Assembly: GCA_036003045.1 (NCBI GenBank)
Contig: DASYSS010000052.1
Span: forward strand, 62,001 to 126,000
Source of the DNA: Gemmatimonadaceae bacterium
GTDB taxonomy: Bacteria; Gemmatimonadota; Gemmatimonadetes; Gemmatimonadales; Gemmatimonadaceae
Length of the DNA stretch: 64,000 nucleotides
Direction of reading: 5' to 3'
Shown in pieces: positions 6,950 through 27,712 of the stretch (position 1 is the first letter of the stretch; each line of letters opens with the position of its first letter). The notes below the pieces were generated by a model that did not search any database, had not been told where the DNA came from, and was given only the letters and a program-made list of their open reading frames with translations. Position numbers and translations under genes: made by a program.

Positions 6950-8503
6950 CTAGACGACGGGACGACGCTCGCCGTGACGCGTCGCTTGCTCGAACGCGTG
7001 CGCGAGTTGCAGCACGCTCCAATCGCCGCGATGACGTCCCACGATCTGTAGCCCGACGGGCAGTCCGCTCGCGCTGAACCCCGCCGGCACCGAGATCGCC
7101 GGGTTCGACATGAAGGTCACGTACCAGCACGAGCGCATCCAATCGATGTAGGTCGGCATCGCCACGCCGTTGATCGACGTCGGATACTCGGTGGTGCTGT
7201 CGAAGGGCTCGACCTGCGTCACGGGAAGCACGAAGTACTCGTACCTCCGGAAAAACTCCGTCGTGTCGTGGTACAGCTTGGCCTGGCGCACGCTCGCGCG
7301 CGCCACGTCGGCCGCGGTCTGACGCTCGGCCTCGGCGATCTCCCACTTCACGGTCGCCTTCACCAGGTCGGGATGCTGGCGCGCGAGGGCCGCATAGCTC
7401 GAGTGGTATGAGAGATGTCGAATGACCGGGAACGCTTCGTCGACGCCGCTGAAATCGGGCTCGGCGTCCTCGACCACGCAACCGAGCTGCTCGAACGACT
7501 TGCGATTCGCGTTCACGACACGCGTGATCTCCGGCTCGAACGGTATTCCGCCGAGATCCTTGAACCAGGCGACGCGCACTCCCTTGAACGAGCGGGTGAG
7601 CGGTGCCCGAAAGCGCGCGGGATCCTCGTCGATCGTGAGCGGATCGCTGGCGAGCGGACCGGCGATCGCGCTGAAGAAGAGCGCGAGGTCGGCGACGGTG
7701 CGCGCCATCGGTCCGCTCGTCGAAAGCGGCGACCAGGTGCCGTCCTCGTGTGGTACGCGGCCCGGCGACGGCCGGAATCCAACGACGTTGTTCCACGCGG
7801 CGGGATTGCGCAGCGATCCGCCCGTGTCGCTGCCGTCGGCGATCGGTACCATCCCGGTCGTGAGCGACGCGGCCGCGCCGCCGCTGCTCCCACCCACCGT
7901 CTTCGCGAGATTGTACGGGTTGTGCGTCGCGCCGAACACCGGATTGAACGTGTTCGATCCGGCGCCGAACTCGGGCGTGTTCGTCTTCCCGAGCGTGATG
8001 GCGCCCGCCGCGCGAATGCGCGTCACGATGAGCGCGTCCTTCGTCGGGACGTTGTCCTTGTAGAACGGCGACCCGAACGTCGTGCGGATGCCGGCGGTCG
8101 GGACGAGATCCTTGTGCGCGACCGGCAGCCCGTGCAACACGCCGAGCGGGCGGCCGTGCGCCTGTTGCTCGTCCGCTCTCGCCGCGTCGGCCATCGCGCG
8201 GTCGGCGACGAGCGTCACGATCGCGTTGATCTTCGGGTTGACGCGCTCGATCCGGGCGAGGTGCGCGGTCATGACGTCGCGCGCCGACACCTGCTTCTGG
8301 CGAATGCGGCGCGCGAGCTCGATGGCTGAAAGCGTGCAGAGCTCATCGCTCGAATTCGAGAGCGGTGAAGGTGAAGGCCGCGTCGCTGGTCCCGCCCCGT
8401 TCTCCGGCATCGGATCTGATTGTTGAAGCGTGGGAAGGATGCCGCCCAGAGCCGCGGCGCCGACGATCTGGTTGAAGGTGCGGCGACTGATCGGATCCTG
8501 CAT
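6950..8503 (-). CDS. Tat-exported amidase (amidase signature family)
   Basis: 517 residues from ATG 8503. The N-terminus has a twin-arginine signal (SRRTFNQIVGAAALGG). The Ser-cisSer-Lys triad is complete: Lys131 in PVAHKDL, Ser206 in VGGSSGGAAA and Ser230 in GSDTGGSLRNPA. The length is normal for the family, which hydrolyses amides ranging from small aliphatic ones to fatty acid or peptide amides; the substrate cannot be told from sequence. The frame is open upstream to 8647, but the internal ATG puts the Tat motif at the right place. It diverges from the epoxide hydrolase with 143 bases between them, which must hold both promoters. Confidence 0.9.
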   Translation of the reverse strand: MQDPISRRTFNQIVGAAALGGILPTLQQSDPMPENGAGPATRPSPSPLSNSSDELCTLSAIELARRIRQKQVSARDVMTAHLARIERVNPKINAIVTLVADRAMADAARADEQQAHGRPLGVLHGLPVAHKDLVPTAGIRTTFGSPFYKDNVPTKDALIVTRIRAAGAITLGKTNTPEFGAGSNTFNPVFGATHNPYNLAKTVGGSSGGAAASLTTGMVPIADGSDTGGSLRNPAAWNNVVGFRPSPGRVPHEDGTWSPLSTSGPMARTVADLALFFSAIAGPLASDPLTIDEDPARFRAPLTRSFKGVRVAWFKDLGGIPFEPEITRVVNANRKSFEQLGCVVEDAEPDFSGVDEAFPVIRHLSYHSSYAALARQHPDLVKATVKWEIAEAERQTAADVARASVRQAKLYHDTTEFFRRYEYFVLPVTQVEPFDSTTEYPTSINGVAMPTYIDWMRSCWYVTFMSNPAISVPAGFSASGLPVGLQIVGRHRGDWSVLQLAHAFEQATRHGERRPVV

Positions 8504-24469: not shown

Positions 24470-24634
24470 CTACTTCTTGCGGCGGCGGATCCAGGCCGCC
24501 ACGCCAACCACGGCGGCTCCGGTTGCGACCAGTGTAATCGTCGCCGGTTCCGGCGTCGTGACCGGGACGCCGCCGGCGTACGCCGGCGCGGCCGTGACGA
24601 CAAGCAGTACCAACGCCCGTGCGATGTTCTTCAT
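24470..24634 (-). CDS. Minimal PEP-CTERM protein (copy 2)
   Basis: Only 54 residues: a signal peptide (MKNIARALVLLVVTAAPAYA), a spacer of about eight residues, then a full PEP-CTERM sorting region (TTPEPATITLVATGAAVVGV, then a Trp and RRRKK). The start is fixed by a GGAGG site six bases upstream of ATG 24634. PEP-CTERM tails are recognised by exosortase, which cuts near the PEP motif. After processing almost nothing would remain of the mature protein. It is 58 bases downstream of a near-identical copy. Confidence 0.8.
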   Translation of the reverse strand: MKNIARALVLLVVTAAPAYAGGVPVTTPEPATITLVATGAAVVGVAAWIRRRKK

Positions 24635-24692
24635 GCCGTCCTCCGATGGAGATATGCCAACGACAGAGCCACGCCAAGAATTTCTGAGCGCG

Positions 24693-24854
24693 TTACTTCT
24701 TGCGCCGACGGACCCACGCCGCCACGCCAACCACGGCCGCTCCGGTCGCGACCAGCGTGATCGTCGCCGGCTCCGGAGTGGTGGTGATCGTGCCGGCGTG
24801 CGCCGGTACGGCGGCGACGACGAGCAGCGCCAGCGCCCGTGCGATGTTCTTCAT
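24693..24854 (-). CDS. Minimal PEP-CTERM protein (copy 1)
   Basis: 53 residues, almost identical to its downstream neighbour: MKNIARALALLVVAAVPAHA, then GTIT and TTPEPATITLVATGAAVVGV ending WVRRRKK. A GGAGG site precedes ATG 24854. The two differ mainly in the short spacer and in third codon positions, so they arose by recent tandem duplication and are under protein-level constraint. No exosortase gene is in the window, but an exosortase-type CPBP protease lies 2.1 kb away. Confidence 0.8.
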   Translation of the reverse strand: MKNIARALALLVVAAVPAHAGTITTTPEPATITLVATGAAVVGVAAWVRRRKK

Positions 24855-24994
24855 GCCTTCCTCCAATGAGAAAACGCTAACGCCAGAAATCTTGCGGCGA
24901 GCCCCGCCGTTGGCGGCCGCGCCGAGCTGTCTGTACGCTGAGAATGGAACGGTCTGCATGGAGCGTCAAGCCGCGCGCCCGCTGTAACGAAACG

Positions 24995-26929
24995 TTACTG
25001 CGCCGGACCCAGCGCCGGATTTCTATTGAAGTAGCCCACCGGCACGAGGCTGAAGCCGGCGGTCTGCACCGGCATCACCGGCCAGTCCTCCGGACGAGGG
25101 ACGTGCGTGACGCCGACGGTGTACCAGAGCACGACGTCGGTATCGAGGACCGATCGGCCGCCGCGTGTCCATCGGGCGAGCCCGTCGCCGCCGCGCGATT
25201 GATTCGGATAGTCGCCGGCCGACCATCGCTCGGAGTCCACTTGGGGCGTAACCCACAGTGGCGCGCCTAGAAAGCCGGCGCGGCGGCGAATCGCGCTGGC
25301 CGAGTCCGCCATCGAGAGAACGATCTCGCCGGGAACGAGCTCGTACCCTGTCGGGCCGCCGAGCCCGTTTCGCTTGCCCGAATTCGAGATGAGCCAGCCC
25401 GCGGGAGAACCGACCGCGCTCCCGTCGATCGCCTCGCGCTCGGTCGACCAGGTTCGTGCGTGCGTGGCGAAGCCACCGCCGCGACCCGCCGTGGACAACG
25501 GATGAGTCGCCAGGTCCTCGACTCGATTGGGCGACGCGCCGTCGACGTCGAGATCGAGTCGGTAGTTGAAGAAGTGTTGATGGTTCACCGCCGCGATTCC
25601 CGCCGCCACCTGTTCGGCGAGCGAGTCGGAAACCGCGGCGGCCTTGGGAGCCATCACGCCCGTGAGCAGAACTCGGTGGCCGATCGTTCCGTCTTCTCGA
25701 AAGATCCACTCGAAACCATAGTCGTAGTTGCCGAGCCGGCTCTCGGAAAACACGACGAGTTCGCGAGCGCGAGCGCCCGCTCCGCCGTGTCTCCACGCGA
25801 TACCTCCATCCCGCTCGTACACGGCGATCGCGCGTGGCACGTGCCGAGGCGCGCCGGAGGGGTCCGCGAACGCGGCGTCGATGAAGTTGCTGCCCGCGGG
25901 GCAATCGAGGCCCGGCGCAAGCATCGAAACGGCGGTGCCGATTCCGAGCTCGCCCACGTCGAACGTGTTCCGGAAGTACCACGCTGCGGCGGGATCGCCG
26001 TACGGCACGACCATCTCCGACAGCGAGGCGCGGTAGATGACGCTGCGCACGCCGGTGCCGTCGTCGAAGCCGACGCCGTAGAGCACGAGCCCTTCGCGCG
26101 GCCGTACTCCGGCGTGAAGGCGCCAACGTCCCCACGTGATCGCATGGCCGTTCACGTCGATGTCCGCCGAGCGCGCCGAGGATTCTTCGCGCGCCGAGAG
26201 CCGCGGGCCGCGCGTCGCCGGACGGGGAAGGGGCTGCCACGCGTCACGCTCGCTCGCGGCGGTGGGCGTCGCGACGCTCCCGGAATCGTGGACGTCGAGC
26301 ACGCGGCGACCGGCGACGTCGACCAGCACGACGAGTCCTTCCACCGGACGCGAGAACTCGTTCGGCGATGCCGCGCGCACGACCGTGAGCGCGCGCACCA
26401 GCCGACCGCGAGCCGGATCTTCGTTTCCCTCCGCGAAGTTCCCCGCGGTCCAAGCCATCACGGCGACATCGTTCGGTGAGAGGCCGCGCCTGGCCAGCGC
26501 TTGGCGCCACGCGCCATTGCCGCGCGTCACCGATTCGGCGACGTCGGCGTCCACGCCGTCGAGATGCGGCTCGACGCCGGGCACGTCGCGCGTGCTCTCG
26601 AGCGTCCGATCGTCGACGTTGACGACGGCTTCACTCGTCGAGTTGCGCGCCGGGTCGTACAGCACGACGAACGCCTTTCGTGGCTCGGGCGCGTTTTGAA
26701 GGACAACCCGCTTGGAAGGCTCGAGCAGATCGATCGTGCTCACGCGGCGCGAGCCCCCCCCGCCGAGGAGCGAATGCGCGTCGAGCACCGCGCGCACGCG
26801 GTCGATCTCGCCGGTCGTGAGTGGATCGAGCGCGTGTCGCGAGGCGGCGATGTTCTGCCGGCATCCCACGAACGCGACGATCAGAATCGGGAGAGCAGCC
26901 GCAACGGAGCGAAGTTGCATCGAGGGCAT
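24995..26929 (-). CDS. Copper amine oxidase (lipoprotein)
   Basis: 644 residues. The N-terminal ILIVAFVGC resembles a lipobox. The catalytic domain shows the Asp base (RNTFDVGELG, Asp324), the topaquinone precursor Tyr402 in LGNYDYGFEW, two copper histidines in VNHQHFFNYRLDLD and a third in VTHVPRPEDWPVMPV. This is the full active-site set for oxidising primary amines to aldehydes with H2O2 and ammonia. Its exported location suggests use of extracellular amines. ATG 26929 was used; 26920 is also possible. It diverges from the CPBP gene with 42 bases between. Confidence 0.88.
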   Translation of the reverse strand: MPSMQLRSVAAALPILIVAFVGCRQNIAASRHALDPLTTGEIDRVRAVLDAHSLLGGGGSRRVSTIDLLEPSKRVVLQNAPEPRKAFVVLYDPARNSTSEAVVNVDDRTLESTRDVPGVEPHLDGVDADVAESVTRGNGAWRQALARRGLSPNDVAVMAWTAGNFAEGNEDPARGRLVRALTVVRAASPNEFSRPVEGLVVLVDVAGRRVLDVHDSGSVATPTAASERDAWQPLPRPATRGPRLSAREESSARSADIDVNGHAITWGRWRLHAGVRPREGLVLYGVGFDDGTGVRSVIYRASLSEMVVPYGDPAAAWYFRNTFDVGELGIGTAVSMLAPGLDCPAGSNFIDAAFADPSGAPRHVPRAIAVYERDGGIAWRHGGAGARARELVVFSESRLGNYDYGFEWIFREDGTIGHRVLLTGVMAPKAAAVSDSLAEQVAAGIAAVNHQHFFNYRLDLDVDGASPNRVEDLATHPLSTAGRGGGFATHARTWSTEREAIDGSAVGSPAGWLISNSGKRNGLGGPTGYELVPGEIVLSMADSASAIRRRAGFLGAPLWVTPQVDSERWSAGDYPNQSRGGDGLARWTRGGRSVLDTDVVLWYTVGVTHVPRPEDWPVMPVQTAGFSLVPVGYFNRNPALGPAQ

Positions 26930-26971
26930 GATAGTGCAGCCGGCCGTCGCGCGGTGCTATACTCTGGCGCG

Positions 26972-27712
26972 ATGACGGACACCGAAGCCGGCGCGCCCCC
27001 GCCACCTGTTTCGCGCCAGGTCGAAACGACGCCGCGGAACGGCTCGGGCCCCCGGACGGCCGGAACGATCGCGTGGGCCGGTCCTTTCGTCGTCTTCGCG
27101 GCGTGGCTGCTGCTCGACACGCACATTCCGCTCGCGAATCCGTGGAAGGAGATCGCCCGCGACGCCGTTCTCGCCGCGTCGATACTGATTTTCTCGCGAC
27201 GAGTCCTTCCGAGATCGGCGCCACACTGGAGAACGAGCGTGGCGATCGGCGTCGGCGTGTGCGCGCTCTGGGTGGCGCCCGATCTATTGATCCCCGGATG
27301 GCGGTCGAGCGTCGTCTTTCAGAACGGAATCCTGGGCCGCGTCACCATCTCGATCGATCCGCGAGAGCTGACACCGCTCATGCTCGCGCTCCGGACGATG
27401 CGCGCTGCCCTGCTCGTCCCTGTGCTCGAGGAGCTGTTCTGGCGCGGCTGGCTCCCGCGATGGCTTCAGGACCCGCAGTTCAATCGCGTTCCGCTCGGCC
27501 AGTACTCCTCGCTCGCGTTTTGGGCGACGGCCGTGCTCTTCGCCGCCGAGCACGGGCCGTTCTGGGAGGTGGGACTCGTCACAGGCTTGGTCTACAACTG
27601 GTGGATGCGCCGCACGCGGTCGTTGGGAGACCTGATGGTCTGCCACGCCACGACCAACCTCGCGCTCTCGGTGTTCGTGATCGTAACGCAGCGGTGGGGG
27701 TTCTGGATGTGA
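26972..27712 (+). CDS. CPBP intramembrane glutamic protease, exosortase-associated type
   Basis: 246 residues with a disordered N-terminus and six to eight membrane segments. The CPBP motifs are complete: Glu153-Glu154 and Arg158 in VLEELFWRGWLPRWL, His194 in FAAEHGPFWEVG and His225/Asn229 in LMVCHATTNLA. The wording of these motifs (FWRGWL, EHGPFWEVGL, YNWWMRRTRSLGD) is that of the CAAX-protease-related family found in exosortase/PEP-CTERM genomes. It may process or survey PEP-CTERM proteins such as the two encoded nearby; that is inference. Confidence 0.8.
   Translation: MTDTEAGAPPPPVSRQVETTPRNGSGPRTAGTIAWAGPFVVFAAWLLLDTHIPLANPWKEIARDAVLAASILIFSRRVLPRSAPHWRTSVAIGVGVCALWVAPDLLIPGWRSSVVFQNGILGRVTISIDPRELTPLMLALRTMRAALLVPVLEELFWRGWLPRWLQDPQFNRVPLGQYSSLAFWATAVLFAAEHGPFWEVGLVTGLVYNWWMRRTRSLGDLMVCHATTNLALSVFVIVTQRWGFWM

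Follow-up and report, generated by a model that had tools for sequence, protein, structure and literature searches.

An exported copper amine oxidase and a cargo-less PEP-CTERM protein as a candidate surface module in Gemmatimonadaceae

Two tandem genes in a 64,000-nucleotide stretch of a Gemmatimonadaceae genome (the window) encode PEP-CTERM proteins that consist of little more than an export signal and a sorting tail. An exported copper amine oxidase precedes them, and comparison across genomes suggests that this enzyme and such a mini gene form an unrecognised two-gene surface module. As a tentative explanation, which we put at somewhat below even chances, the minis are cargo-less exosortase substrates that stand in one unit with the amine oxidase, one or two per unit, and serve the enzyme. 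The amine oxidase neighbour was overlooked by the original prediction, which dealt with the tandem genes themselves.

The tandem genes and the neighbouring enzyme

The description of genes A and B (Table 1) as a tandem PEP-CTERM pair with almost no mature domain was borne out by their layout. Gene A consists of a 20-aa signal peptide, the 6-residue linker GTITTT and a 27-aa PEP-CTERM tail; in gene B the 7-residue linker GGVPVTT joins a signal peptide and a tail of the same lengths. The linkers were counted from the predicted signal-peptidase site, between AxA and G, to PEP, and come close to the eight or so residues given by the original prediction; the site was placed by eye, as were all signal peptides, cleavage sites and lipoboxes in this work. 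Both tails score above the 16-bit cut-off of the PEP_CTERM model TIGR02595 (A, 23.6 bits; B, 22.0 bits). The expected GGAGG is found before each gene, five bases 5′ of both ATGs, while 'near-identical' translates into 85% amino-acid identity.

The 25 nucleotide differences between A and B are distributed 6, 4 and 15 over codon positions 1, 2 and 3, and dN/dS is approximately 0.19, a rough figure from 52 codons. Because of the third-position bias, this ratio and the related minis at the equivalent site in five other genomes, A and B look, at the sequence level, like real genes under purifying selection, beyond what chance would give. Frames of 86–88 aa, which begin at upstream starts in the frames of A and B, were set aside because the short versions are favoured both by the GGAGG ahead of their ATGs and by the N-termini of related minis. 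A hairpin 3′ of gene B separates it from a convergent MGMT-like gene (−41.7 kcal/mol over a 66-nt region, z −6.7). Its T-tract is weak, and it is a probable terminator common to the two genes.

The amine oxidase is encoded on the same strand, 140 nt from gene A, and scores 385.8 bits against PF01179. Its best match among solved structures is the Arthrobacter phenylethylamine oxidase (Arthrobacter globiformis, PDB 1av4), which aligns over nearly the full length (E 6.5e-98). Residues Y402, D324, H450, H452 and H609 are invariant in the six mini-linked enzymes described below, with NY as the TPQ motif. By comparison with the Arthrobacter enzyme, we take Y402 to be the TPQ tyrosine, D324 the aspartate base and H450, H452 and H609 the copper histidines. 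A lipobox-like cysteine closes the signal peptide in all six (by eye), and these enzymes are probably lipid-anchored. The lipobox was rejected as a mark of the clade, since it also occurs in other, mini-less amine oxidases of the phylum. Divergent from the amine oxidase, a polytopic membrane protein is encoded on the + strand at 26965–27712; by eye it has the look of a CPBP/CAAX-type protease, and Pfam gave no match for the stretch searched, which was possibly in the wrong frame.

Table 1. Coordinates of the mini genes and associated features. Positions refer to the window unless another locus is named.
Feature	Position	Strand	Remarks
Mini PEP-CTERM gene A	24693..24854	−	53 aa, MKNIARALALLVVAAVPAHAGTITTTPEPATITLVATGAAVVGVAAWVRRRKK
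Mini PEP-CTERM gene B	24470..24634	−	54 aa, MKNIARALVLLVVTAAPAYAGGVPVTTPEPATITLVATGAAVVGVAAWIRRRKK
GGAGG ribosome-binding site of gene A	24860..24864	−	5 nt before ATG
GGAGG ribosome-binding site of gene B	24640..24644	−	5 nt before ATG
PEP-CTERM tail of A, including stop codon	24693..24776	−	PEP motif, hydrophobic stretch ending AWV, RRRKK
PEP-CTERM tail of B, including stop codon	24470..24553	−	
Perfect 14-bp inverted repeat, 3-nt loop	24415..24445	.	between MGMT-like gene and gene B
Exported copper amine oxidase (PF01179)	24995..26929	−	directly upstream of the minis; lipobox-like Cys at signal peptide end
Mini relative in G112 (C53), locus L209	~7944-8099		55 aa, short linker; nearly identical to the next
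Mini relative in G113 (C215), locus L210	4384-4539		55 aa, short linker; nearly identical to the preceding

Linkage of the enzyme and the mini gene

A search of 179 Gemmatimonadaceae genomes with the window amine oxidase returned 25 loci in 23 genomes. At the best six loci, which lie in the window, G064, G020 (Gemmatirosa kalamazoonensis), G114, G127 and G125, a mini gene follows downstream on the same strand. The enzyme-to-mini gaps are 110–283 nt, and most minis have a clear ribosome-binding site. There are eight linked copies in the six genomes (53–77 aa), the gene being doubled in the window and in G125; the original prediction had proposed a search for further very short PEP-CTERM genes, and other genomes of the family do contain them. 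No mini gene was found within 1.5 kb of the other 19 amine oxidase loci of the family, within 1.5 kb of 10 additional loci taken from 395 sampled genomes of the phylum, or in flanks of up to 5 kb at 80 loci of other phyla, and a PEP-CTERM tail fused to any related amine oxidase was not seen.

A tree of 44 enzymes places the mini-linked amine oxidases, all six, in one clade (support 97/95), and the mini-gene label requires a single change on this tree (0 of 500 shuffles). The sister group comprises seven enzymes from Acidobacteriota; none has a mini gene, and no equivalent small membrane gene was recognised 3′ of them; exosortase was found in 9 of the 10 Acidobacteriota genomes tested. Within the clade the enzymes have diverged to ~42% identity and the mini gene has been kept in all six. 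When the six neighbourhoods were compared by all-against-all blastp, the amine oxidase was the sole gene common to all, and the neighbours that differ include release factor 3, an amidohydrolase, a citrate-type transporter, a PIG-L protein and the MGMT-like protein. Since the enzymes form one clade and the other neighbours differ, the enzyme and the mini appear to stay together as a unit. The comparison is strong evidence that they are functionally coupled and have a single origin, although the pair itself is patchy (6 of 179 family genomes). In the stretch between enzyme and mini, a search for a leader RNA or promoter gave no Rfam match above the gathering score and no sigma-70 match; folding was not unusually stable, nor could a convincing element be aligned.

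The signal peptide and the tail are conserved among the eight linked copies; the mature segment is not. Each copy has, by eye, the N-terminal features of a Sec signal peptide (Lys/Arg start, hydrophobic core, AxA site), and the PEP motif is invariant. The linkers (GTITTT, GGVPVTT, GILPVTVT, GNENWQQPTTRV and others) range from 6 to ~30 residues and have almost only the first glycine in common. The tails also differ from the ordinary tails of the family, with a median hydrophobic core of 19 versus 17 residues and a tryptophan in 6 of 9 minis versus 5 of 66 ordinary tails from the loci covered (Fisher p ~0.0002, with related sequences counted as independent).

A profile built from the eight copies scored them at 78–97 bits and ordinary long PEP-CTERM proteins at less than 49 bits. 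The next matches were the two relatives from G112 and G113 (66 bits), which adjoin a CBS-domain-like gene and no amine oxidase; DUF305-like and LVIVD-like genes were noted nearby, by eye. The amine oxidase link thus marks the main mini group, and very short PEP-CTERM genes occur elsewhere in the family too. Most genomes rich in PEP-CTERM genes carry no linked mini. A stand-alone mini in G013 (C168, L077 2643–2882; 45 bits) is convergent to a cluster of Fur-like, SCO1-like, PCuAC and cupredoxin-like genes, so that copper appears again beside a mini, possibly by coincidence. Other short PEP-CTERM frames in G013, G125, G064, G051 and G114 were not accepted as minis, being mostly contig-edge fragments or truncated copies; that at G051 (C11, L080 5063–5356) lies in a tandem array, where it is a truncated copy of an adjacent PEP-CTERM gene and apparently a remnant.

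Exosortases and the role of the mini proteins

The genomic counterpart that the original prediction called for, an exosortase, is present in the window genome as one gene on a separate contig (PF09721, 200.7 bits, above the TIGR02602 cut-off). An EpsI gene overlaps its 3′ end and a PEP-CTERM gene lies just upstream. The genome has five PEP-CTERM genes above the TIGR02595 cut-off, A and B included. Exosortase is present in four of the six mini-gene genomes; in G064 (92% complete) and G125 (88% complete) none was found even at E 10. The six genomes span 3 to 46 PEP-CTERM genes, with only three in G064 and 19 in G125. Given these 19 genes, the absence in G125 is probably an assembly gap, for which the three genes of G064 give less reason; for the two incomplete genomes together, such gaps would be a likely cause. 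The exosortases of the family fall into two classes, one of ~300–400 aa frames scoring ~190–220 bits and the other mostly longer (~470–615 aa, ~140–160 bits), the latter perhaps EpsI fusions; mini genes co-occur with both.

If the minis are exosortase substrates serving the enzyme, the amine oxidase and the minis would be co-transcribed. The mini protein would be exported by Sec and cut by signal peptidase between AxA and the glycine that follows, after which its tail would hold it in the inner membrane for processing there by exosortase. The product would be a peptide of 6–30 residues, usually with an N-terminal glycine. This stub would stay bound to the cell surface or be set free there, at the site of action of the amine oxidase, which is itself probably lipid-anchored. 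The benefit probably lies either in the stub left by exosortase or in the processing step itself, for example as a surface anchor or cap near the enzyme. It is probably not a specific message, since conservation is confined to the export signal and the sorting tail. A more particular version, which we consider very improbable, makes the stub the partner substrate or anchor of the amine oxidase, the free N-terminal glycine amine of the surface peptide being oxidised by the enzyme to an aldehyde that cross-links surface polymers; exosortase would then deliver a reactive handle, not a protein. Against exosortase substrates in general stand the two genomes in which no exosortase was found, the Acidobacteriota sister enzymes, which work without a mini despite the presence of exosortase in nearly all genomes tested, and the unusual mini tails, which might reflect some other role in the membrane than processing.

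Such a role is the basis of an alternative that we regard as somewhat unlikely, in which the mini escapes processing and serves as a one-helix membrane subunit to bind or position the amine oxidase, its PEP-CTERM likeness being inherited and exosortase unused. The strict linkage to one enzyme clade, the longer hydrophobic core with a tryptophan at its inner border and the two genomes lacking a detected exosortase are all in keeping with this. However, a plain membrane anchor has no need of PEP, which all eight linked copies retain; the segment that would face the enzyme is unconserved, and four of the six genomes do have exosortase. There is also a small chance that the mini is an incidental passenger, which arose once 3′ of the amine oxidase and has persisted only because it travels with the enzyme. 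The patchy distribution and the one origin on the tree would fit, but not the retention in all six genomes after the enzyme had diverged so far, the duplication in two of them, or the purifying selection between the window copies.

The roles put forward by the original prediction fared less well. A decoy or flux regulator, an empty substrate that competes for exosortase and so tunes the sorting of other PEP-CTERM proteins, agrees with the cargo-less, exosortase-type appearance of the minis, their strong ribosome-binding sites and the two copies, so that part of the idea stands. It leaves the amine oxidase link unexplained, in that the mini is retained beside this enzyme in genomes with few or many PEP-CTERM genes and is absent from most genomes with many, and we think it improbable. 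The chance of a sequence-specific secreted signalling peptide, freed by signal peptidase and exosortase, seems slight. Size, architecture and the duplicated gene would suit such a peptide, but no receptor or regulator is conserved near the six loci, and a sequence-specific pheromone is unlikely because the linker is unconserved save for its leading glycine, its length and sequence varying even between A and B. A raw cassette for domain fusion is likewise disfavoured by the maintenance of the mini gene as such beside one enzyme through its divergence, and outside the tail the minis have, by eye, no resemblance to the remaining three PEP-CTERM genes of the genome.

Relation to known systems

The minis share with the PEP-CTERM/exosortase (EpsH) system (TIGR02595, PF09721) the signal peptide, PEP motif, membrane stretch, basic end and a genomic exosortase. 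They differ in having essentially no mature domain and in their fixed partner, which is a copper amine oxidase and not an exopolysaccharide gene. Within the phenylethylamine-oxidase type, the window enzyme is set apart by the lipobox-like cysteine after its export signal and by the downstream mini. A literature search, outside which most subscription journals fell, found nothing that pairs PEP-CTERM with copper amine oxidase and nothing on Gemmatirosa with amine oxidase.

To our knowledge, the chemistry of exosortase in bacteria is still largely unsolved. The mini genes come near to the smallest possible natural test substrate for it, tied to one enzyme, and Gemmatirosa kalamazoonensis, a named species whose genome is near-complete, carries one copy. 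They also indicate that a PEP-CTERM gene of this small size can be authentic, conserved and tied to a constant partner.

GlyGly-CTERM and MYXO-CTERM tags likewise combine a short motif, a membrane stretch and a basic end (PMC3237569, PMC11980579). These C-terminal tags of the rhombosortase and myxosortase systems resemble the mini tails in plan but differ in motif, and A and B score 14.3 and 12.5 bits against the MYXO-CTERM model, below its cut-off of 20. The closest parallel in size class is PExPT-CTERM (TIGR04200, targ_of_XrtJ, 57 positions), in which a signal peptide and a sorting tail also enclose almost no cargo. With 20.2 bits for A and 17.8 for B, however, both proteins stay far below the 40-bit cut-off of that model. 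A further difference from PExPT-CTERM is that the only exosortase of the window genome is on another contig than the minis; no XrtJ model is among its NCBIfam matches, in a library that may hold none. Minimal exosortase targets are thus already modelled in PExPT-CTERM, and what is new here is the variant linked to an amine oxidase.
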